A DNA stretch of 64,000 nucleotides, taken from assembly GCF_900109545.1 (NCBI RefSeq), contig NZ_FOAP01000013.1, forward strand, positions 1 through 64,000, given 5' to 3'. Position numbers and translations under genes: made by a program. Below the pieces are notes generated by a model, which made no database searches, was not told the origin of the DNA, and worked only from the letters and a program-made list of their open reading frames with translations. Source of the DNA: Stigmatella aurantiaca (GTDB lineage: Bacteria > Myxococcota > Myxococcia > Myxococcales > Myxococcaceae). Shown in pieces: positions 13,254-24,731 of this stretch (positions are counted from its first letter, which is position 1; each line of letters opens with the position of its first letter).

Positions 13254-13733
13254 ATGTCAGAAGTCATGATGTTTGGCGGTGCCGAAGAGGGACGCTTCCT
13301 GATCGTGCGTGCGCGGGGCTGGATTTGCGCGCTGCCCATTGCGGAGGTCGTCGAGACGATGCGGCCGTTGCCGGTGACGCCGGTGGCGGAGGCGCCGCCG
13401 TTCGTGCGGGGGGTGGCCATCGTGCGGGGCCGGCCCTCTCCCGTGGTGCACCTGGCGACGTTGCTGGGCGGCACCCGCGCGGGCACCTCGCAGCGCTTCG
13501 TCTCGCTGCGCGTGGGCGAGCGGCAGCTCGTGCTGGAGGTGGAGGAGGTGCTGGGGCTGCGGCGGCTGGGCGCGCGCGAGCTGGGCTCGCTGCCGCCGCT
13601 GCTGGCGGTCGCCGTGGGGGGCAACCTGGAGGTGCTGGGCACGCTGGATGGGCAGCTCCTGGCGGCGCTGAACACCTCGCGGCTGCTCACCGAGGCGGTC
13701 TGGGGCCGGCTCGTGACGGGAGGCGAGGCGTGA
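13254..13733 (+). CDS. cheW: CheW-like coupling protein (WspB-like position)
   Basis: A 159-residue CheW-domain protein. The ATG at 13254 gives MSEVMMFGG; the fold signature is seen in FLIVRARGWICALPIAEVVE, VRGVAIVRGRPSPVVHLATL and ERQLVLEVEEVLGLR. CheW proteins couple chemoreceptors to the CheA kinase at the inner membrane. As first gene of a seven-gene operon with one-base stop/start overlap to cheR, it corresponds to WspB in Wsp systems. A second CheW follows after cheR, so the two probably link different parts of the receptor array. Confidence 0.9.
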   Translation: MSEVMMFGGAEEGRFLIVRARGWICALPIAEVVETMRPLPVTPVAEAPPFVRGVAIVRGRPSPVVHLATLLGGTRAGTSQRFVSLRVGERQLVLEVEEVLGLRRLGARELGSLPPLLAVAVGGNLEVLGTLDGQLLAALNTSRLLTEAVWGRLVTGGEA

Positions 13734-15160
13734 TGGAGTGGCCCAGGGCCGTGAGCCGGTTCGCCACCTTCGTGGAGCGGCGCCTGGGGCTCGCGCCCGT
13801 TCCCAACGGAGGCCGGGAGCTGGAGGCGCTGCTGGCGGAGAAGTCCGCGCGCACCAGCCTGGAGGCCTACCTGGACCGGCTGGAGAGCGCCGGGCCCCAG
13901 GACGCGGAACTGCGCGTGCTGGCCGAGCGGCTCACGGTGGGCGAGACGTACTTCTTCCGCCACCAGGCGCAGTTGCAGGCGCTGGTGGGGGAGGTGCTGC
14001 CCCAGGTGCAGCGCGGGGGCAAGCCGGCGCGCGTGCTGAGCGCGGGGTGCTCCTCCGGCGAAGAGGCGTACTCGGTGGCCATCCTCAGCCGGGAGAACCC
14101 GCTGGTGGAGCCCGAGCGCCTCTTCATCACGGGCGTGGACGTGAACCCCCGCGCCATCGAGCGGGCCCGCCGCGCGCGCTACGCCGCCTGGTCCCTGCGC
14201 TCCTGTCCCGAGGCGCTGCGCGAGCGCTGGTTCCACACCCTGCCCAGCGGGGACTTCGAGCCCCGGCCCAGCGCGCGGGAGCGCGTGGTGTTCGAGGAGC
14301 GCAACCTGCTGGAGGAGGATCCGGTCTTCTGGGCGCCGGGCTCCTTCGACGTCATCCTCTGCCGCAACGTCACCCTGCACTTCACCGCGGAGGTGACCCG
14401 CGCCGTCATCGCCCGCCTGGAGCGGGCGCTCACGCCGGGAGGCGTCCTGCTGCTGGGGCCCTCCGAGACGCCCCGGGGCTTCTCCGAGTCCTTCGAGGTG
14501 CTGCAGGCCGGCGAGGCCTTCTACCACCGCCGCCGCACGGCCCCCGCGCCCTCCGGGCCTCCGGAGCCCCCGCCCCTGGCCGTGCGCGCCCCCCGCGCGG
14601 CGGAGGCGAGCGCTTCGGTGCCTTCGGCCTGGAGCCCGAAGCCCTCGTCCCACGAGCCGCCCGGCATGGATGGGGCGTGGCGGCTGCTGGAGGAGGAGCG
14701 GTACGCCGAGGCCCAGGCGTGGCTGGAGCAGCTCCCCGAGGCGGACCGGGAGCAGTCCAGCGCGCGGCTGCTGCGGGCGGTGCTGCACTTCCAGAGCGGC
14801 CACTTCCCGGAGGCGGAGCGGGTGGCCGAGTCGCTCGTGGCCACCGGCCGGGCGGAGGCCGCCGTGTACTACCTGCTGGGGCTGTGCCGCGAGCAGGCCG
14901 GGGATGACGGGGGCGCGCGCCACCGCTACGCGCGGGCCGTGCACCTGGAGCCCACGTTCGCGCTGGGGCACCTGCGCCTGGGCATCCTGGCCCGGCGTGC
15001 GCGGGAGGCCATGCCCGCCCGCGTGGCGCTGCGGCTGGCGCTCACGCTGCTCGCGCACGAGCAACCCCTTCACCTGACGTTGTTTGGCGGAGGCTTTGGC
15101 CGCCACGGCTTGATGCAGGTCTGCCAGCAAGAGCTGCGCGCCTGCGCGGAGGTTCCATGA
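13733..15160 (+). CDS. cheR: CheR methyltransferase with C-terminal TPR domain (WspC-like)
   Basis: A 475-residue protein. Residues ~20-80 include the CheR N-terminal helices and GETYFFRHQ. The SAM-binding methyltransferase domain carries LSAGCSSGEEAYSVAIL (~102-118), TGVDVNPRAIERAR and ILCRNVTLHF (~206). The C-terminal ~165 residues (from about 310) are tetratricopeptide repeats (ARLLRAVLHFQSGHFPEAER, LLGLCREQAGDDGGARHRYA). It would methylate glutamates of the operon MCP at 15697. The TPR tail is the hallmark of WspC-type CheR proteins and probably tethers the enzyme. The start overlaps the cheW stop by one base (TGATG). Confidence 0.92.
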   Translation: MEWPRAVSRFATFVERRLGLAPVPNGGRELEALLAEKSARTSLEAYLDRLESAGPQDAELRVLAERLTVGETYFFRHQAQLQALVGEVLPQVQRGGKPARVLSAGCSSGEEAYSVAILSRENPLVEPERLFITGVDVNPRAIERARRARYAAWSLRSCPEALRERWFHTLPSGDFEPRPSARERVVFEERNLLEEDPVFWAPGSFDVILCRNVTLHFTAEVTRAVIARLERALTPGGVLLLGPSETPRGFSESFEVLQAGEAFYHRRRTAPAPSGPPEPPPLAVRAPRAAEASASVPSAWSPKPSSHEPPGMDGAWRLLEEERYAEAQAWLEQLPEADREQSSARLLRAVLHFQSGHFPEAERVAESLVATGRAEAAVYYLLGLCREQAGDDGGARHRYARAVHLEPTFALGHLRLGILARRAREAMPARVALRLALTLLAHEQPLHLTLFGGGFGRHGLMQVCQQELRACAEVP

Positions 15161-15693
15161 CCAGCCGGAGTGAGAGCACGTCCCGGCGCCTGGCCGAGCT
15201 GCGCGAGGAGTTCGATTTATCCTTCTCGCGCCCACCCGCGCGGGTGGACACGCGCTGGGAGGTGCTGCTGCGGCTGCGCGTGGCGGGCTCGGCGCTGGCG
15301 GTGCCGCTGGAGCGGCTGTCGGGCCTGCACATCCTCACCCGGGTGGTGGCCCTGCCGGGCAGCCCCGCGGGGCTGCTGGGCCTGATGGGCCTGCGCGGCC
15401 AGCTGGTGGCGGTGCATGACCTGGCCTACCGGCTGGGGCTGCCCTCGGACGAGAAGCCGCACTGGATGGTGCTGTGCGGGGGCGAGCGGCGCATGGGGTT
15501 GGCCGTGGGGGGCTTCGAGGGCCAGCTGCGCGTCACCCCCGAGCAGATACAGCCGAACGCGGGGGAAGCCCCCCGGCCCTACCTGCGGGCCAGCGTGGCG
15601 CGCCCGGACGCGCCGCCCCTGCCGGTGCTGGATGTGGATGCGTTGGTAAAAGATCTCCTGGACGGGGCCGCGGCTCCGCGGAACACGAGGTAG
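15157..15693 (+). CDS. cheW: Second CheW-like coupling protein (WspD-like position)
   Basis: A 178-residue CheW protein overlapping the cheR stop by four bases (ATGA). An extra N-terminal helical segment (SRRLAELREEFDLSFSRPPA) precedes the CheW fold: LLRLRVAGSALAVPLERLSG, GLLGLMGLRGQLVAVHDLAY, GERRMGLAVGGFEGQLRVTP. Likely bridges the MCP and the CheA-REC hybrid, as WspD does. The N-terminal extension distinguishes it from the CheW at 13254, which suggests the two are not redundant. Confidence 0.9.
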   Translation: MTSRSESTSRRLAELREEFDLSFSRPPARVDTRWEVLLRLRVAGSALAVPLERLSGLHILTRVVALPGSPAGLLGLMGLRGQLVAVHDLAYRLGLPSDEKPHWMVLCGGERRMGLAVGGFEGQLRVTPEQIQPNAGEAPRPYLRASVARPDAPPLPVLDVDALVKDLLDGAAAPRNTR

Positions 15694-15696
15694 TGA

Positions 15697-17175
15697 ATGC
15701 GTAGGAAGTGGACGGTGGGACAACAGATCGCCGGCGGGTACGCGGCGGTGCTGGTGAGCATCGGCATCCTGGCCATCCTGACGATGCGCGGCAATCAGCG
15801 CTTCCTGGAGACCAGCCGGACGATGGGGCACACCTATAAGGTCATGGCCCACCTGGAGACCGTCGTCTCCGAGCTCAACCATGTGGAGTCCGCCAAGCGC
15901 GGCTACGTCATCACCGGCCAGGATGCGTTCCTGGCCACCGTGCGCACCGCCGAGGCGCGCATCGCCGGGGAGCTGGAGACGCTGCGCGCGCTCACCGTGA
16001 ACCTGCCCGAGCAGCAGCGCCACCTGGCCAGCGTCCAGCAGCGCGTCACGGTCCGGCTGCAGGAGATGCAGGAAGTCATCGACGCGCGCCGCGCCAAGGG
16101 CTTCGAGGCCGCCCTGGCGCTCATCGCCGCGGACGAGAACCGGCGCGCCTCGGACACGCTGCGCTCCAGCGTGGACGAGATGCGCGCCACCGAGGAGCGG
16201 CTCCTGCAGGACCAGGAGCGCGGGGCGGAGGAGGACGCGCGCTTCCTCACGTGGCTGGCCGAGGGCGGCGTGGCCGCGGTGCTCATCTTCATCGTGGTGA
16301 CGGGGGTGGCCATCAGCCGCGGGCTGCGCAAGCAGATCGGCCAGGCGGTGGAGCACGTGCAGAGCTCCTCCGCGGAGCTGCAGGCCGCCGCCACCCAGCA
16401 GGTGTCCGGCGCGCGCGAGCAGGCCTCGGCCACGACGGAGGTCTCCACCACCGTCAAGGAGCTGCTCTCCACGTTCCGCCAAATCGCCGGCAACGCGCAG
16501 CAGGTGTCGCGCGTGGCGAGCGAGACCGCGGGCACCACGCGCCTGGGCGCGCAGACGGTGGACCGGGCCCAGGAGGCCATCGAGACGGTGCGCCGCCAGG
16601 TGGACGTCATCGTCAACCACATGCTGGAGCTGGGCAAGCGCTCGCAGGAGATCGGCGGCATCCTGGACATCATCAACGAGCTGGCCGAGCAGACGAACAT
16701 TCTCGCCATCAACGCCACCATCGAGAGCGCGGGCGCGGGCGAGCACGGCCGGCGCTTCGCGGTGGTGGCCGAGGAGATCCGCAAGCTGGCCGACCGCGTG
16801 GGGGCCTCCACGAAGGATGTGCGCTCGCTCATCGACGAGGTGCGCGCCGCGGCGAACACCACGCTCATGGCCACCGAGGATGGCTCCAAGGCGGTGCAGA
16901 ACAGCGCGCGGCAGTTCTCGGACGTGGCGGGCACCTTCAAGCGCATCGCCGAGCTGACGGGCAACAACCTGGACGTGGCGCGTGAAATCGAGCTGTCCAC
17001 CCAGCAGCAGACGACGGCGGTGGAGCAGGTGAGCACCGCCATCCAGCAGGTGGCGATGACGGCCCGGCAGACGGAGGTGAGCTCCGCGCAGACGTTGCAG
17101 ACCTCCACGCAGCTGACCCGGCTCTCCAAGCAGCTCGCCTCGCTGGTGGACAGCCGCACCACGGCCCCGGCATGA
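15697..17175 (+). CDS. mcp: Methyl-accepting chemotaxis protein with CHASE3-like sensor
   Basis: A 492-residue receptor: transmembrane 1 (residues ~8-30, [16 protein letters not shown]), a periplasmic four-helix CHASE3-like domain (~35-180, with [17 protein letters not shown] and [15 protein letters not shown]), transmembrane 2 (~187-209, [18 protein letters not shown]), then a cytoplasmic coiled coil. The signalling tip is [19 protein letters not shown] followed by [14 protein letters not shown]. No HAMP domain is evident between membrane and signalling helix, which is unusual. Presumably senses a periplasmic or contact-related cue and drives the CheA-REC encoded next, with which it overlaps by four bases. 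Confidence 0.93.
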
Positions 17176-19253
17176 ACGACGAGATTCTGCGCTACTTCAA
17201 GGTCGAGGCCCGCGAGCTGCTCCAGCAGCTTGGCCAGGGCTTCGTGGCCTTGGAGGAGGGCGCGGACGACGCCGAGATGGTGCCCCAGCTCTTCCGCTGG
17301 GCGCACACGCTCAAGGGCGCCGCGCGGGTGGTCAGCCACGCGCGCATCGCGGAGATTGCCCACGCGGTGGAGGACGCGCTCCAGCCCTTCCGGGACGAGG
17401 GCGTGCCGCTGCCGCGCTCCAGCGTGAGCGAGTTCATCCGCCTGGTGGCGCAGATGGGCGACGCGCTGGCGGAGATGGACGCGCCGCCCCCGGCCGCCCC
17501 CGGCGAGGAGCCGCAGCCGGTGCCCGACGGGAGCGCGCCCGAGACGCTGCGCGTGGAGCTCTCCGCGCTGGAGGAGCTGCTGGATGGGCTCGCCGAGGCG
17601 GTGGTGCGCCTGGGCGGCCTGCGCGAGGCGGTGGAGGCGGTGGGACAGGCGCGCAACGCGGCGGAAGGGCTGCTCGAGCACCTCACCGCGCCGGCGGCCG
17701 CGAGCGGCTCGCCCGCCGAGCGCGCCCGGTGGCTCTCGCGCACCCTGACCGTGGCCGAGGGGCTCAACGGGGCCCTCACGCGCGCGGGCCGGCGGCTGGA
17801 CGGGGGGCTCGGCAAGGTGGAGGGTGAGCTGTCCCGGCTCCGGGACGCGAGCCACGCGCTGCGGCTGGTGCCCGCCTCCACGCTGTTCGGCTCGCTGGAG
17901 CTGGCGGCGCACGAGGCGGCGGCCCTGACGGGCAAGCGCGTCTCGCTCCAGGCCGAGGGCGGGGAGGTGCGGCTGGATGGGCACGTGCTGGCCGCGGTGC
18001 GCCAGGCGCTGTTGCACGCGGTGCGCAACGCGGTGGACCACGGGCTGGAGATGCCCGAGGAGCGGCTCGCGCTGGGCAAGCCGGAGGCGGGCCGGGTGCT
18101 CGTGCGCGTGGAGCGGCGCGGGGCCCGGGTGCGCTTTCTGTGCGAGGACGACGGGCGCGGCGTGGACCTGGGCGGCGTGCGCGACGCGGCGGTGGCGCGC
18201 GGGCTGGTGCTGGAGCAGGACGCGGCCTCGCTGGACGAGGCGGCGCTGCTGGACCTGCTCTTCCAGGCGGGCTTCAGCACCGCGCGCTCCGTGACGGACC
18301 TGTCCGGCCGCGGCGTGGGGCTGGACGTGGTGCGCGAGATTGCGCGCGCGCTGAAGGGCGAGGCCACCGCGGCCACCTGGCCGAGCCTGGGCACGAGCAT
18401 CATCCTGGATGTGCCCGTGTCCCTCACCTCGCTGGAGGTGCTGGAGGCGGAGGTGGGCAACCGGCGCGTGCTCCTGCCGCTGGATGCGCTGAGCGCCACG
18501 GTGCGCCTGGGGCCGGAGACGCTCACGTGGGTGGGCGCCCGGGCCTCCTTCCTCCACGAGGACCAGACGGTGACGTTCCTGCCGCTGGCCACGGTGCTGG
18601 GCAACCCCGAGCCGCCCCAGCCCCGCCCCTGGTCCGCGGTGGTGATTGGCCGCGGCGAGGCGCGCGTGGCGGTGGGCGTGGACCGGCTGCGCGGCATTCA
18701 CCGCGTGGTGGTGCGGCCCCTGCCCTCCTCGGTGCCCCCGCTGCCCCTCGTCGCCGGGGCCAGCTTCGATGCCCAGGGCGAGCCGCTGTTGGTGATGGAC
18801 ATGGTGGGCCTGGCCCACTGGGTGCGGCAGGGCCAGGTGCCCACCGTGCAGGCGCAGGCCACGCGCAAGCGCCGGGTGCTCGTCATCGACGACTCGGTCA
18901 CCACGCGCATGCTGGAGCAGGGCATCCTGGAGTCGGCCGGCTACCAGGTGGAACTGGCCGCCTCGGGCGAGGAGGGGCTGGAGAAGGTGTCTCGCGGCGG
19001 CCACTCGCTCGTCATCGTCGACGTGGAGATGCCGGGGATGAGTGGCCTGGATTTCACCCGCAAGGTGCGCGCCACGCCCGCGCTGGCCTCGCTGCCTGTT
19101 ATCATGGTGTCCTCCCTGGGCGCGGAGGAGGACCAACGGCGCGGGCGTGAGGCGGGCGTGTCGGCATATATCGTCAAGGGTGAGTTCGATCAGCACGGCT
19201 TCCTGGACACGGTGCGGCGGCTGTCCGGGGGACCCACGGAGCGGAGCCCATGA
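17172..19253 (+). CDS. cheA: CheA-REC hybrid histidine kinase (WspE-like)
   Basis: A 693-residue hybrid kinase. Domains in order: HPt (~1-105, phospho-His in [13 protein letters not shown], ~45); short proline-rich linker with no separate P2 domain; dimerisation helices (~130-245); ATPase (~250-430; N box [17 protein letters not shown] boxes DDGRGVD and [10 protein letters not shown]); CheW-like domain (~430-560); C-terminal REC (~570-690; [12 protein letters not shown], phospho-acceptor Asp in [11 protein letters not shown], Lys in YIVKGEF). It phosphorylates the CheB and REC-REC proteins encoded downstream; the fused REC may act as phosphate sink or output. The composition matches WspE. Confidence 0.93.
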
Positions 19254-20299
19254 GCACGCGCGCCCTGCGCATCCTCATCGCCGAGGATTCACCGACGGTG
19301 CGGCGCCGGCTGGTGGATGCCTTCTCGGCGGATGCGGGGTGCATGGTGGCCGCGGAGACCGCTGACGGGGACCGGGCCTTCGAGCTATGTCAGCGGCTGC
19401 GCCCGGACGTGGTGGCGTTGGACCTGGCGCTGCCCAAGGTGAACGGCGTGGAGCTGACCCGGCGCATCATGGCCCACTGTCCCACCCCCATCGTCGTCTT
19501 CTCCTCGCCGGAGAACCGCGCCCGGGGCCTGCACCTGCTGGATGCGCTGAGCGCCGGCGCGGTGGACGGCATGGAGCGGCCCTTGCGCACCACCACCGAG
19601 GACTGGATGGTGGAGCTGCTCGCCCGGGTGAAGCTCGCCGCGCGCGTGCCCTCCATCACCCACCCCCTGGGGCGCCTGAAGCTGGAGCCGGAGCCGCCCC
19701 GGGACTTGCCCGCGCGCGCCGTGGTGATGGGCGCCTCGACGGGCGGCCCCGCCGCGGTGAAGGACATCCTCCAGCGGCTGCCCCGGGACTTTTCCCTGCC
19801 CATCCTGCTGGTGATGCACCTGTCCGAGCAGTTCGAGCTGTCCATGGTGGAGTGGCTGGGCAAGTACTCGCCCCTGCCGGTGCGCCAGGCGGTGGACGGC
19901 GAGGTGCTGCCGTCCATGTGCCGGCCGGCGCTGGTGCTGGCCCGGGCCAACCGCCACCTGATACTCAGCGAGGGGCTCCTGCGGCTGACGGATGGGCCGG
20001 AGCGCCACTCGTGCCGGCCCTCGGTGGACGTGCTCTTCGAGTCCGCGGCGCGCGAGCTGGGAGGCAGGGCCATCGGCTGCCTGCTCACGGGCATGGGGCG
20101 GGATGGGGCCGAGGGGATGGATGCGCTGCGGCGCTCCGGGGCGGTGACGCTGGCCCAGGACGAGGCCAGCTCAGTGGTGTTCGGCATGCCGCGCGAGGCC
20201 ATCCGCCTGGGCGCGGCCAGACACGTGGTTGGATTACAGGACATTCCCGGGTGGCTCGCCGCGCTCGCGCGCCGGCGCCCGGAGCGAGGACAGGCATGA
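19250..20299 (+). CDS. cheB: CheB protein-glutamate methylesterase (WspF-like)
   Basis: A 349-residue CheB: REC domain (~1-125; ILIAEDSPTVRRRL, Asp in VALDLALPKVNG) and methylesterase domain (~155-345) with the catalytic Ser in MGASTGGPAAV, His in LVMHLSEQF and Asp in LTGMGRDGAEG. It would demethylate the operon MCP and so set adaptation. One oddity: the conserved REC lysine, normally in a KP motif, is replaced (AVDGMERP), so phosphorylation-driven activation may differ. ATGA overlaps at both ends tie it to cheA and the REC-REC gene. Confidence 0.92.
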   Translation: MSTRALRILIAEDSPTVRRRLVDAFSADAGCMVAAETADGDRAFELCQRLRPDVVALDLALPKVNGVELTRRIMAHCPTPIVVFSSPENRARGLHLLDALSAGAVDGMERPLRTTTEDWMVELLARVKLAARVPSITHPLGRLKLEPEPPRDLPARAVVMGASTGGPAAVKDILQRLPRDFSLPILLVMHLSEQFELSMVEWLGKYSPLPVRQAVDGEVLPSMCRPALVLARANRHLILSEGLLRLTDGPERHSCRPSVDVLFESAARELGGRAIGCLLTGMGRDGAEGMDALRRSGAVTLAQDEASSVVFGMPREAIRLGAARHVVGLQDIPGWLAALARRRPERGQA

Positions 20300-21393
20300 A
20301 GCCCAGGGTACTCATCGTGGACGACAGCGCGACCGTGCGGGCGGACCTGCGCGTGGTGCTCGGCGCCGCGGGGTTCTCCACCCTCTTGTGCGGCGGCATT
20401 GGCGGGGCGCGCAAGGCCCTGTCCGAGGAGCGCTTCGACCTGGTCATCCTCGATGTCCTCCTGCAGGACGGCGACGGGGTGGACCTGCTCATGGAGATGC
20501 GCGCGCACGAGCGCACCTCCCAGGTGCCCGTGCTGCTGCTCTCCTCCGAGTCCGCCGTGGGCGCGCGCCTGCGCGGCCTGAGCGAGGGCGCCAGCGACTA
20601 CGTGGGCAAGCCGTACGACTCCGCCTTCGTGGTGAAGCGCGCGCGCGAGCTCATCCAGTCGCGCCCCCCGCCGCCGCCCAAGGCCCCCGAGGCCGAGCCG
20701 CCGCTGGTGGCCGCCGCGCGCCGCCGCCGCCTGCTGGTGGTGGACGACAGCCCCACGTTCCTCCAGGCGGTGGTGGAGGAGCTGCGCCAGGACGGGCATG
20801 ACCTCATCCCCGCGCGCTCCGCGGAGGAGGCGCTGCCGCTGCTGGAGGCGCAGCCCGTGGACTGCGTGCTGATGGACCTGATGCTGCCGGGCATGGACGG
20901 CATCTCCGCCACGCGCCTCATCCGCTCGCGGCCGGGGCTCGCCTCGGTGCCGGTGCTGATGTTCACCTCGCGCTTCGAGAGCCAGAAGATGGCCGAGGCG
21001 CTCAACGCCGGCGTGGACGCGTTCTGCCCTAAGGCCAGTGACTTGGGGCTCCTGCGCGCGCAGGTGCGCAACATGCTCCGCCGCCAGTCCCCGGAAGGGG
21101 AGGCCTCCGCGCCCGCCAAGCCGGCCGCGGCCGCCAAGCCCCCCGAGGCCGGCGCGCTGCTGGAGCGCGTGGTGGCCCGCAGCGGCCTGTCGCCCGTGAT
21201 TGCCTCCTCCACCATCGCCCGCGCCTGCCGCCGGGCCAGCGTGGAGCCGCAGCAGCTCAGCCCCGTCTCCCTCACCCAGGCGCTGCCCTTCATCCGCGAC
21301 GCGCTCCGCGTGTTCCTCACCGAGAACGAGACGCGGCAGCGCATGGCGGACATCGAGGAGCTGACGCGCGACGCGCACCTCGCGGTGGTGTAG
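20296..21393 (+). CDS. Tandem response regulator (REC-REC) with novel C-terminal helical domain
   Basis: A 365-residue protein with two complete receiver domains. REC1 (~1-120): RVLIVDDSATVRADL, Asp in VILDVLLQDGDG, Lys in YVGKPYD. REC2 (~148-270): RLLVVDDSPTFLQAV, Asp in LMDLMLPGMDG, Lys in FCPKASD. After an Ala/Pro linker, the last ~80 residues (GLSPVIASSTIARACRRASV, LTQALPFIRDALRVFLTENE, TRQRMADIEELTRDAHL) form helices that match no output domain I recognise: not GGDEF, not DNA-binding. It takes the place that the diguanylate cyclase WspR has in Wsp operons and is probably the system output. ATG overlaps the cheB stop. Confidence 0.85.
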   Translation: MKPRVLIVDDSATVRADLRVVLGAAGFSTLLCGGIGGARKALSEERFDLVILDVLLQDGDGVDLLMEMRAHERTSQVPVLLLSSESAVGARLRGLSEGASDYVGKPYDSAFVVKRARELIQSRPPPPPKAPEAEPPLVAAARRRRLLVVDDSPTFLQAVVEELRQDGHDLIPARSAEEALPLLEAQPVDCVLMDLMLPGMDGISATRLIRSRPGLASVPVLMFTSRFESQKMAEALNAGVDAFCPKASDLGLLRAQVRNMLRRQSPEGEASAPAKPAAAAKPPEAGALLERVVARSGLSPVIASSTIARACRRASVEPQQLSPVSLTQALPFIRDALRVFLTENETRQRMADIEELTRDAHLAVV

Positions 21394-21769: not shown

Positions 21770-22285
21770 ATGCCGTACGTCGCTTTGGAGTGGGACCACC
21801 GGATTGGCAAGCCGATGGTCAAATACGTGGTGGTGCAGTGTGCTGGATTGTCGGTGAAGTGTGGGGGCCCCCAGGCATTGGCCCCCCGGCGGGACGTGGC
21901 ATACTTCGTCAACGAAGAGACGGCCGAGCGGGATGCGCAGGCCTTCGCCGCCTACAAGAACGCGCAGGCGGCCGGCGAGGAAGCGTTCCCGGTACCCGGG
22001 AAGGATGTGTCCCAGGAGCCCCGCCGCCACCTGGCATTTGGGTGGGACCACCTGCTCTTCAGCCCCCTGATTCAGTGGGCGGTGCTGGAGTGGGGCGGGG
22101 AGGGCGGCACGCCCATGCCCCGCACGGATGTGGCGTACTTCCTGGACCCGGTGACGGCCGAGAAGGACGCGAAGACGTTCAGTTGGATGCGAGACGATTG
22201 GAAGGACGCTCAGGAGGCAGGCCCTCATGTGAGCTGGGAGCGAACCGCGTATAATTCAGAAATGCCCTCCCCGGCCGCTAGCTGA
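21770..22285 (+). CDS. Unrecognised protein with two internal repeats
   Basis: A 171-residue soluble protein with a strong start (CAGGAGAG nine bases upstream). It consists of two copies of one motif: WDH at residues 8-10 and 92-94, DVAYF at 42-46 and 120-124, and TAE-(R/K)-DA at 51-56 and 129-134, each repeat ending A(A/E)AG. No signal peptide, membrane segment or known catalytic motif. I do not recognise the family. It lies 55 bases upstream of a hybrid histidine kinase on the same strand and may be cotranscribed, suggesting a ligand-binding or accessory role in that pathway; this is inference. Confidence 0.6.
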   Translation: MPYVALEWDHRIGKPMVKYVVVQCAGLSVKCGGPQALAPRRDVAYFVNEETAERDAQAFAAYKNAQAAGEEAFPVPGKDVSQEPRRHLAFGWDHLLFSPLIQWAVLEWGGEGGTPMPRTDVAYFLDPVTAEKDAKTFSWMRDDWKDAQEAGPHVSWERTAYNSEMPSPAAS

Positions 22286-22340: not shown

Positions 22341-24731
22341 ATGCATGCAACGCTACTGAGCGTCCCACCTACGGTCCGTGAGGAGATGGAGGGGGCATTC
22401 CAGGCGTCAGGGCTCTCATGGGAGGGCCGGGTGACGAGCGTTGAGCGGTTGGAGGAGTTGCCCGCGGCGGTGTCCGCAGGGTTGGTGGTACTGGGGGATG
22501 AGAGTGGGGGCGTGGAGGAGGCCGTGGCCAGGTGCCGCGAGCTGCACTCGCGACGCTTCATCCCCCGCACACACTTGGTGGTTCTCACGGCACGGCCCGA
22601 GGCGGAGCAGGAAGCGCTCATCCGGGCGGGGGCCGACGAATGCATTCCGGTTCAAGGTGGCGGGTGGCGCAGGCGCGTGGCGGCCTTCCACCGGCGTCTG
22701 GCGGCCACGGAGGGCGGCGGTGCGCCCCTGGCAGGGGCCGTCTCGCAGCGCATCGCTCCCGAGATCGCGCTCCGGGCCCTGCTGGCCAGCACCACGTCGG
22801 ACCTGGGGCATGACTTCTTTCGCACGCTGGTGATGCACCTGGCCAACTCGTTCGGCGTCACCAGCGCGCTGGTAGGCGAGCTGCAGCCGGAGCGCGACTC
22901 GCTGCGCACCCTGGCCTTCTGGCTCAACGGCCGCTTCGAGGAGAACGTCACCTACAGGCTTCAGGGCACGCCCTGCCACAACGCGGTGCTCAGCTCGCTG
23001 TGCCACTACCGGGACGGGGTGGCCACGCGCTTTCCCGAGGACGCGATGCTGATGGACCTGGGCATGCGCGGCTACCTGGGCGCGGCGCTCAAGAACTCGC
23101 GCGGGGATGCCATCGGCGTGCTGGCCATTCTCCATGGCGAGCCCCTGGACCTGGGGACGCTGGACCGGGCCCTGCTGGAGGCGCTGGCGGCGCGCGCGGG
23201 CGCGGAGCTGGAGCGCATCCGCACTCAGGAGGCGCTGGAGCGCGCGCGGGACTTCTTGCGCAACACGCTGGACGCGGTGCCGGATCCGCTCTTCGTGGCG
23301 GACCGGGCGCACCGCTTCGTGGCGGTCAACCGCGCCTTCTGCGGCTTCATGCGCCGCAGCGCCGAGCAACTGCTGGGCAGCAGCTACCATGACTTCCTGC
23401 CCGCGCGCGAGGCGGACGACGGCTGGCGGCTGGATGAGCTGGCCTTCACCTCCGGCCAGCCCATGGAGCGCGAGGAGACGCTGAGCTCGATTTCGGGCAC
23501 CACGCGCACCCTGGTCACCAAGCGCGCCGTCTTCGCCGAGGCGCCGGGCCAGCCCTTCCTGGTGGTCACCATCCGGGACATCACCGACCACCGGCGCCTG
23601 GAGACGCAGCTGCGGCTGGCTGACCGCATGGTCTCGGTGGGGACCATGGCGGCCGGCGTGGCGCACGAAATCAACAACCCGCTGGCCTACGTCTGCTCGA
23701 ACCTCTCCTACCTGGGCAACGTGCTGGCCCAGGGGGTGCCGCCGGCCGAGTCCTTGCCGGAGCTGCGCGAGGTGGTGGCCGAGACGGAAGAGGGCATTGG
23801 CCGGGTGCGCGCCATCGTGCAGGACCTGAAGGCCTTCGCGCGCTCGGACGAGGACCGCGTGGGCCCGGTGGACGTGCACCAGGTGATGGAGGGCGCGCTG
23901 CGGCTGGTGCGCAACGAGCTGTCCTACCGGGTCCGGGTGGTGCGCGCGCTGGACGCGGTGCCCGCGGTGCGCGGCAACGAGGGCCGGCTGGGGCAGGTGC
24001 TGGTGAACCTGCTGGTGAATGCCGTGCAGGCCTTCCCCAAGGCGGACCTGGACCAGAACCGCATCCGCCTGGCCACCCGGTGCGAGGGGGCCAACTGGGT
24101 GGTGGTGGAGGTGGAGGACAACGGGCCGGGGATGGAGCAGGAGGTGCTCGAGCGCATCTTTGATCCGTTCTTCACCACCAAGCCGGTGGGCGTGGGCACG
24201 GGGCTGGGGCTGGCCATCTGCCACTCCATCGTCCACTCCATGGGCGGGCAGATCGACGTGCGGAGCCGGCGCGGGCACGGCAGCGTGTTCCGCGTGCTGC
24301 TGCCCATCTTCCAGGGCGAGGACGTGGTGCTGCCGGCGCTGCCGGTGCGCCAGGAGCACGAGGCGCCCCGGCGGAGGCTCCTGCTCATCGACGACGAGCC
24401 GGCGGTGGGCACCTCGGTGCGGCGGCTCCTGCAGGGGGTGCACGAGGTGCACGCGGTGCAGGACGCGCGCGAGGCGCTGAGCCTGCTGTCGCGCGGCGAG
24501 CAGTACGACGCCATCCTCTGCGACGTGGTGATGCCGGGCATGAGCGGGGTGGACTTCCTGCGCGAGCTGGAGCAGCGCGAGCCGCTGATGGCGCGGCGCA
24601 CGGGGCTGATGTCCGGCGGGACGTTCTCCACGCAGGCGCGCGAGTTCGTCGCCGCGCGCGCCAGTGACTTGCTGGAGAAGCCCTTCGAGCCGGAGCGGCT
24701 GCGCACCTTCGTGGCGCGGCTGCTGGCCTGA
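22341..24731 (+). CDS. Hybrid sensor histidine kinase (pseudo-REC/GAF/PAS/HisKA/HATPase/REC)
   Basis: A 796-residue cytoplasmic kinase. Domains: degenerate receiver-like N-terminus (~1-115; VVLGDESGG where a phospho-Asp would be, HLVVLTARPEAEQEALIRAG); GAF (~135-295); PAS (~300-415; RNTLDAVPDPLFVADRAHRF); HisKA with phospho-acceptor His in GVAHEINNPLAYV (~440); HATPase (~540-660; LVNLLVNAVQAFPKAD, DNGPGM, GTGLGLAICHSIV); C-terminal REC (~675-790; LLLIDDEPAVGTS, Asp in ILCDVVMPGMSG, Lys in LLEKPFEP). The NtrB-like H-box suggests phosphorelay to its own REC and then to a separate partner. No membrane segment, so it reads an internal signal. Confidence 0.9.
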   Translation: MHATLLSVPPTVREEMEGAFQASGLSWEGRVTSVERLEELPAAVSAGLVVLGDESGGVEEAVARCRELHSRRFIPRTHLVVLTARPEAEQEALIRAGADECIPVQGGGWRRRVAAFHRRLAATEGGGAPLAGAVSQRIAPEIALRALLASTTSDLGHDFFRTLVMHLANSFGVTSALVGELQPERDSLRTLAFWLNGRFEENVTYRLQGTPCHNAVLSSLCHYRDGVATRFPEDAMLMDLGMRGYLGAALKNSRGDAIGVLAILHGEPLDLGTLDRALLEALAARAGAELERIRTQEALERARDFLRNTLDAVPDPLFVADRAHRFVAVNRAFCGFMRRSAEQLLGSSYHDFLPAREADDGWRLDELAFTSGQPMEREETLSSISGTTRTLVTKRAVFAEAPGQPFLVVTIRDITDHRRLETQLRLADRMVSVGTMAAGVAHEINNPLAYVCSNLSYLGNVLAQGVPPAESLPELREVVAETEEGIGRVRAIVQDLKAFARSDEDRVGPVDVHQVMEGALRLVRNELSYRVRVVRALDAVPAVRGNEGRLGQVLVNLLVNAVQAFPKADLDQNRIRLATRCEGANWVVVEVEDNGPGMEQEVLERIFDPFFTTKPVGVGTGLGLAICHSIVHSMGGQIDVRSRRGHGSVFRVLLPIFQGEDVVLPALPVRQEHEAPRRRLLLIDDEPAVGTSVRRLLQGVHEVHAVQDAREALSLLSRGEQYDAILCDVVMPGMSGVDFLRELEQREPLMARRTGLMSGGTFSTQAREFVAARASDLLEKPFEPERLRTFVARLLA

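Follow-up and report, generated by a model that had tools for sequence, protein, structure and literature searches.

The Wsp chemosensory system is made of two CheWs, a CheR with tetratricopeptide repeats (CheR-TPR), a CheA fused to a receiver domain (CheA-REC), CheB, one methyl-accepting chemotaxis protein (MCP) and a terminal regulator, encoded in the order A-B-C-D-E-F-R. We have analyzed a stretch of 64,000 nucleotides of the myxobacterium Stigmatella aurantiaca (contig NZ_FOAP01000013.1, positions 1 to 64,000, hereafter the window) in which seven genes at 13254-21393, all on the + strand, form one operon with a comparable set of components. Its last gene codes for a response regulator with two receivers (REC1 and REC2) and a C-terminal domain (CTD) that has no counterpart in Pfam or NCBIfam. 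Our analysis suggests that this CTD is the output of the pathway and acts by binding a partner, a reading to which we give a probability of about 0.55 and that is based on its place in the operon, its conservation, the absence of catalytic kin and its separate life as a small protein.

There are described systems with similar features. In Myxococcus xanthus, the che6 cluster (MXAN_6947-6952) has the order CheW, CheR-TPR, CheW, CHASE3-MCP, CheA-REC, CheB (PMC3945109). More generally, CheR-TPR together with multidomain regulators marks the pathways of alternative cellular functions (ACF); clusters with CheR-TPR carry diverse multidomain regulators, a histidine kinase module being present in ~40%, and S. 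aurantiaca is listed with 19 CheRs, 8 of them CheR-TPR (PMC3447774). The window operon has both marks used in that work, a CheR-TPR and a multidomain regulator within the cluster. Judged from its sequence, it is a self-contained ACF-type chemosensory pathway with an apparently undescribed output domain. PMC6194562 cites a survey from 2018 (J Bacteriol 2018 e00620-17) that deals with the chemosensory systems of myxobacteria and has classes of extra systems; this survey may already list the window operon as an extra system and we do not claim that the operon was unreported.

The C-terminal domain of the terminal regulator

The regulator (20296..21393, + strand, 365 amino acids; Pfam Response_reg 1.5e-43 over two stretches, 15 operon copies) has its receivers at residues ~1-121 (REC1, 20296..20658, +) and 144-263 (REC2, 20725..21084, +), as placed by Pfam and alignment, and the CTD at ~286-358; the unnamed four-helix domain with the stop codon covers 21151..21393 on the same strand. 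A preliminary description of the window had pointed out an unfamiliar helical C-terminus of ~80 residues in place of a GGDEF domain and had proposed a new type of output, provided that neither a known output domain nor a GGDEF partner of the same system came to light. Neither of them appeared. The last ~80 residues gave no match in Pfam even at E <= 10 and none in NCBIfam, thus no enzyme, DNA-binding or second-messenger family of these databases, and three chance matches to PDB sequences (E 2.3-3.9). The regulator contains no GGDEF, and the GG(D/E)EF motif was not found in the window in any of the six-frame readings of at least 100 amino acids; in the genome as a whole GGDEF is matched 15 times, on other contigs and never on that of the window (C13). 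No description of the tail domain was recognised in the titles or abstracts of the literature searched.

The AlphaFold2 model of the CTD (90 residues, three sequences) had a mean pLDDT of 86.4, the blocks that cover residues 11-80 averaging 90-97, and predicts helices at 9-20, 25-38, 48-63 and 68-89. Foldseek returned 175 PDB matches at E <= 10 and none at E <= 0.001, and VIA-align, among 473 chains, none at Z >= 5; the best of the latter (Z 4.5, 81 residues, root mean square deviation 5.2) was under the baseline of the tool for helical models. These negatives, obtained with a predicted structure, do not establish a new fold. In the case of the full regulator the model had a pLDDT of 74.7 and a pTM of 0.39, and therefore the arrangement of the domains is not predicted; the listed VIA-align matches of the whole regulator cover the second receiver only.

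We searched the C-terminal 95 residues against 145 genomes of the order (E <= 0.001) and found the CTD at 17 places in 16 genomes, all within three genera (g1, g3 and g7) of one family. We take g1, g3, g7, g19 and f3 to be Stigmatella-, Archangium-, Cystobacter-, Myxococcus- and Anaeromyxobacter-like, respectively, these labels being guesses only. In fifteen of the 17, one of them being the window, the CTD belongs to the gene that closes such an operon, with all seven genes visible in 10 of the 15, so that the association is more than chance. Two genomes have the CTD in orphan proteins with a single receiver (L062 10995-11819 and L064 10895-11626), and REC2 plus CTD is therefore a unit. By eye, the opposite-strand neighbour of both orphans resembles a SIR2-type protein. 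One g1 genome (G081) had no CTD match at all. A search for related loci with the window gave 31 loci, two of which (L028 and L029, from Hyalangium versicolor G082) match through the CTD. The profile A2 at E <= 1 matched 92 of the 145 genomes, mostly by short matches taken as chance.

The CTD has 27 invariant columns out of 73 among 14 sequences. Of 11 pairs compared, eight had ratios of nonsynonymous to synonymous change (dN/dS, Nei-Gojobori) between 0.06 and 0.38; the other three had 0.00, 0.56 and 0.70, the second of these values being based on very few changes and the third corresponding to the window versus L063. For the receivers the values were 0-0.31, and for the fast-evolving linker before the CTD, contained in an alignment cut of 31-82 residues, 0.25-1.19. 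The CTD is therefore under constraint, though less than the receivers. As to the latter, D9, D10, D53, S83 and K105 of REC1 are kept in all 15 operon regulators. REC2 keeps D150, D194, T224 and K246 in 17 of 17 sequences (those of the 15 operons plus both orphan proteins), and position 151 varies, with D in seven (all g1) and G in ten (all g3 and g7). This pattern indicates that REC1 would be the dependable receiver in all copies, while REC2 may be impaired outside g1.

Histidine kinases in the place of the CTD

A tree of CheA (64 rows, after dropping identical ones from 70 collected cores) places the CheA of the window in a myxobacterial clade of 24 rows with support 100/100. Sixteen of these rows belong to g1, g3, g7 and g20 and eight to f2, f3, f6 and g24, and the clade contains all fifteen CTD operons plus L111 (g20). 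CheAs of the window type are found in at least 24 of the 145 genomes (E <= 1e-110); the nine genomes with distant CheAs were selected with this threshold among the best 8 candidates per genome, and more may exist. All seven genes are seen in the distant loci L112, L113, L115, L116 and L118, and also in L114 except for a CheW2 match over 50 bits. L111, L117 and L119 are on short contigs with fewer genes visible.

The terminal gene of these sister operons has a different end. It is REC-REC-REC-PAS-HisKA-HATPase in L112, L114, L115, L116 and L118 (family f3), REC-REC-REC-HisKA-HATPase in L119 (g24), and three receivers followed by PAS, histidine kinase and REC-REC in L113 (f6), as given by Pfam for L112, L113 and L119 and read from sequence comparison for the others; in L111 and L117 the gene is cut by the contig end. 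The window REC1 matches the first sister receiver with 50-57% identity. REC2 is best matched by the third sister receiver in L112, L113, L114, L116 and L119, and narrowly so in L115 (53.9 vs 51.2 bits), the exception being L118 where it is the second. The CTD form is thus one without the kinase and without one receiver, probably the middle one. L111 (genome G121) shows REC1, REC2 and a long linker before the contig end, which is consistent with the CTD form without being proof of it.

The comparison indicates that a histidine kinase output has been exchanged for the CTD among related operons, presumably with the kinase first and the CTD later. Since the same gene ends in a kinase in the related operons, the output would lie in the terminal gene. 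The array is conserved while the output is swapped, something visible here within one kind of operon (kinase clade versus sister CTD clade). Setting the two forms side by side offers a clean way to ask how arrays become connected to new targets. By eye, the third receiver of the kinase-type regulators (L112, L114, L115, L116 and L118) is without the first-strand acidic pair and looks like a pseudo-receiver.

Stand-alone relatives and their membrane partners

A search of 195 genomes across the phylum with profile A2 brought up weak relatives of the CTD in three (G137, 1.2e-7; G042, 2.5e-4; G180, 5.6e-4). When these three were added (profile A6), 68 of the 145 genomes of the order matched at E <= 0.003, of which 16 hold the fused or orphan CTD. 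Those of the further A6 matches that were read correspond to small open reading frames (ORFs) or to the end of longer ones, which fits a binding module. The alignment of 19 stand-alone proteins (the three seeds left out) with A2 by hhalign had a probability of 96.2 over 57 columns, with values of at most 1.14 for 20 column-shuffled profiles; since a profile containing the CTD had served to collect the stand-alones, this test is not fully independent. The CTD thus shares its ancestry with small proteins that occur by themselves in other members of the phylum. In this respect the preliminary description has to be amended, the tail not being unique to the regulator. Relatives occur in many myxobacterial genomes, including some that we guess to be Myxococcus-like, so that a tractable host is available for work on the module.

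DNA was fetched for a subset of the A6 matches, 22 distinct stand-alone loci. In 14 of them (L211, L220, L221, L223, L229-L235 and L240-L242) the gene overlaps a membrane-protein gene by 4 bases (ATGA or GTGA), and in the other eight it does not. The coupled downstream ORFs have 182-298 amino acids and 3-7 hydrophobic segments; their products mostly resemble each other by BLAST (L211 weakly), and the three that were run against Pfam gave no match. A gene of the CTD family followed by a polytopic membrane-protein gene is hence seen as a two-gene unit of myxobacteria. We found the membrane family in 42 of 96 genomes of the family to which the window belongs and in none of the 17 genomes of g1, g3 and g7, the window's included (E <= 1e-5, best 25 candidates per genome), a zero that may reflect one event in one clade and for which no statistic is given. 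The CTD of the window is itself not translationally coupled to a membrane-protein gene, as it is fused to the regulator. Three f3 genomes (G017, G018 and G021) hold both a coupled pair and a kinase-type operon. A tentative scenario, to which we give considerably less credit than to partner binding as such, is that the CTD represents an undescribed myxobacterial output module, the soluble adaptor half of a two-gene membrane system that was captured in one lineage by a chemosensory regulator in replacement of its kinase and that, with the membrane half lost, now connects chemoreceptors to targets of a new class.

Components of the operon and ancestry of its CheA

The remaining genes, all on the + strand, are CheW-1 (13254..13733, 159 amino acids; Pfam CheW 5.8e-20), the CheR-TPR methyltransferase (13730..15160, with start GTG 13730 or ATG 13733; CheR 1.7e-41, TPR_19 1.7e-6), CheW-2 (15157..15693, 178 amino acids; CheW 2.7e-19), an MCP with a CHASE3 sensor (15697..17175; CHASE3 4.1e-34, MCPsignal 3.7e-36) in which Pfam found no HAMP at E <= 1, the CheA-REC hybrid kinase (17172..19253, 693 amino acids; Hpt, HATPase_c, CheW and Response_reg, besides the CheA tree) and the CheB methylesterase with REC (19250..20299, 349 amino acids; CheB_methylest 8.7e-56, Response_reg 6.9e-17). 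The Pfam domains of the seven ORFs were above the curated cut-offs, the CheR query having started one codon early, at 13727. There are overlaps of 4 bases at the junctions CheR/CheW2, MCP/CheA, CheA/CheB and CheB/regulator, and of 1 base (ATG 13733) or 4 (GTG 13730) at CheW1/CheR; the only non-overlapping junction of the six is CheW2/MCP, with a gap of 3 bases. The component list, the overlaps of one or four bases at five of six junctions, and the parallel to Wsp in the order B-C-D-A-E-F, with the MCP in fourth place, had all been read correctly in the preliminary description. By eye, the receiver of CheB (19250-20299) has ERP at the position where Lys is the usual residue, and its control by phosphorylation may be altered.

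The description as Wsp-like stands for the list of components and does not hold for kinship. Five Wsp CheAs of the Pseudomonas family (L199, L200 and L203-L205), from loci with MCP, CheA, CheB and a short REC-GGEEF gene, form their own clade apart from that of the window. Another clade is formed by the CheAs of L201 and L202, also of the Pseudomonas family, whose loci end in a REC-GGDEF frame of ~1200 residues, and the CheA of L206 (same family, with GGDEF frames nearby) stands alone. The tree and the gene order led us to reject a Wsp orthologue. As the forks between the CheA clades are mostly open, the tree rules out membership in Wsp and not a distant common origin of the ACF systems.

A che6 orthologue was favoured at first for the identical gene order and then rejected, since the genome of the window has a separate che6-like cluster (on C16) and the che6-like CheAs (L150_0 of this genome, L164 and L169) are outside the window clade, in a clade of their own; the label che6-like comes from the che7-like cluster adjoining L150_0 and not from the Che6 sequence of M. 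xanthus. The nearest rows outside the clade, joined at 83/89, are L161 (G103), L177 (G078) and L163 with L167 (G018), and none of the nine CheAs of G103, which we guess to be Myxococcus-like, is within it. In Anaeromyxobacter dehalogenans, four of seven clusters are given as syntenic with frz, dif, che6 and che8 (PMC2330069). The che6-syntenic one may belong to the window clade, which the tree would part from che6.

Proposed mechanism and alternative explanations

To judge from the known families to which they belong, the parts of the operon should suffice for receptor-controlled autophosphorylation of CheA, adaptation by methylation and phosphotransfer. We infer phosphotransfer to the regulator, a conformational switch, the binding of a partner and the target. 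A CHASE3 receptor of the inner membrane would be coupled through the two CheWs to CheA-REC, with its methylation set by CheR-TPR and CheB. CheA would phosphorylate the terminal regulator, probably at REC1 in all copies and perhaps also at REC2 in the genus of the window. Phosphorylation would then alter the pose or the exposure of the CTD behind its flexible linker, and the CTD, without catalysis of its own, would bind a partner protein encoded elsewhere. Several observations weigh against this picture. REC2 is without one residue of the acidic pocket in 10 of the 17 sequences, and therefore double phosphorylation is not general. The MCP was not found between CheW2 and CheA in four of the 15 operons (L065, L066, L068 and L069, all g7), and one further copy (L063, from Hyalangium versicolor) gave no match to CheB in the stretch that separates CheA from the regulator, so that the pathway must borrow parts there and the g7 array needs a receptor encoded elsewhere. 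The constraint on the CTD is weaker than on the receivers, a four-helix domain could also bind DNA or serve dimerisation, and in the fetched flanks of the operon copies there is no neighbouring gene common to all genera.

Next after partner binding we rank the control of a histidine kinase by the regulator, with the CTD docking on the kinase, because in the sister operons a kinase is fused to the same receivers and, in the genus of the window, a gene for a hybrid kinase follows the operon. FrzZ has been proposed to act in this way, by analogy with DivK (PMC3441718). The candidate, a GAF-PAS-HisKA-HATPase-REC protein by Pfam (22341..24731, + strand), begins about 950 bases downstream of the operon and is kept, together with the 171-amino acid gene that separates it from the regulator, in three other g1 genomes (L059, L060 and L061). 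It adjoins only these three of the 14 other operon copies; in the ~2.8-3.7 kb of downstream DNA of each of the other 11 neither gene was found. We consider this explanation unlikely and the hybrid kinase a possible, unproven partner. Less probable again is an indirect analogue of Wsp, in which the regulator activates a diguanylate cyclase encoded elsewhere and the output is still cyclic di-GMP. The components parallel those of Wsp, the genome has its 15 GGDEF matches, and in the Pseudomonas family GGDEF outputs are not confined to a single CheA clade (besides the five Wsp loci they are seen with L201, L202 and L206). However, the window CheA is in none of the GGDEF-bearing clades, none of the matches is on the contig, and the GG(D/E)EF motif is absent from the window and from 16 related loci of 15 kb.

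The other explanations are more improbable still. In favour of a transcriptional output through DNA binding, the CTD is small and all-helical, follows receivers as in many regulators and has, by sequence, a basic helix (RACRRA); against it, the CTD matches no DNA-binding family, many of the stand-alone relatives show coupling to membrane proteins and, as weak evidence, Foldseek and VIA-align gave nothing at E <= 0.001 and Z >= 5. Those relatives could instead point to the polytopic membrane protein as the docking partner of the CTD, one homologous family being coupled in 14 of the 22 loci. This family is present in 42 of 96 family genomes and was found in none of the 17 from g1, g3 and g7, which carry the fused CTD, so that such docking is very improbable, largely refuted in fact, and was set aside for the genome of the window. 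That the tail has no function and is a passive leftover or an aid to solubility is hardly credible; the linker is free to vary and the CTD evolves at a higher rate than the receivers, but the invariant columns, dN/dS values mostly well under 1 and the retention of the CTD in the orphan REC-CTD proteins all argue for a function. Partner binding by the CTD is thus the explanation that we prefer.

Neighbouring genes

The 171-amino acid ORF between the regulator and the hybrid kinase (21770-22285) has no Pfam match and seems, by eye, to consist of two copies of a unit of ~60 residues. In eight of ten g3/g7 loci (L065, L067-L069 and L071-L074) a convergent gene adjoins the regulator downstream. Its product has a zinc ribbon and a weak match to M50 proteases, all under the Pfam cut-offs, with an HELGH motif by eye. 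The best relative in the genome of the window is unlinked (G000:C18:103226-104158), relatives lie away from the operon in six of seven g1 genomes, and G103, which has no fused CTD, also has the gene. As a linked target it was rejected because it is unlinked in g1 and present in G103 without the fused CTD; we read its position beside the g3/g7 operons as shared synteny.

Comparison with known systems

The window operon shares with Wsp the CheR-TPR, two CheWs, CheA-REC, CheB, one MCP and a regulator after CheB, and differs in that its MCP is the fourth gene and bears CHASE3, its CheA is of a different clade and REC-REC-CTD replaces REC-GGDEF. With Che6 it shares the order of the first six genes; Mcp6 has a HAMP, however, and the tables of the source list no CheY for che6 (PMC3945109). 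The sister operons (L112-L116, L118 and L119) have a CheA of the same clade and differ in the end of the terminal gene, REC-REC-REC-(PAS)-HisKA-HATPase instead of REC-REC-CTD. Among the eight M. xanthus systems, the tables give FrzZ (290 amino acids) as the sole REC-REC protein, in a source where CheY homologues were not analysed thoroughly (PMC3945109). FrzZ resembles the window regulator in having two receivers in one chemosensory output protein, and differs, by architecture, in that receivers alone are listed for it whereas the window regulator adds a conserved CTD. RomR, as described, has a receiver, a disordered linker and a small helical tail unlike characterised domains, with the difference of a single REC and a Glu-rich tail (PMC3441718). 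By analogy, RomR would be the nearest functional parallel of the regulator described here.

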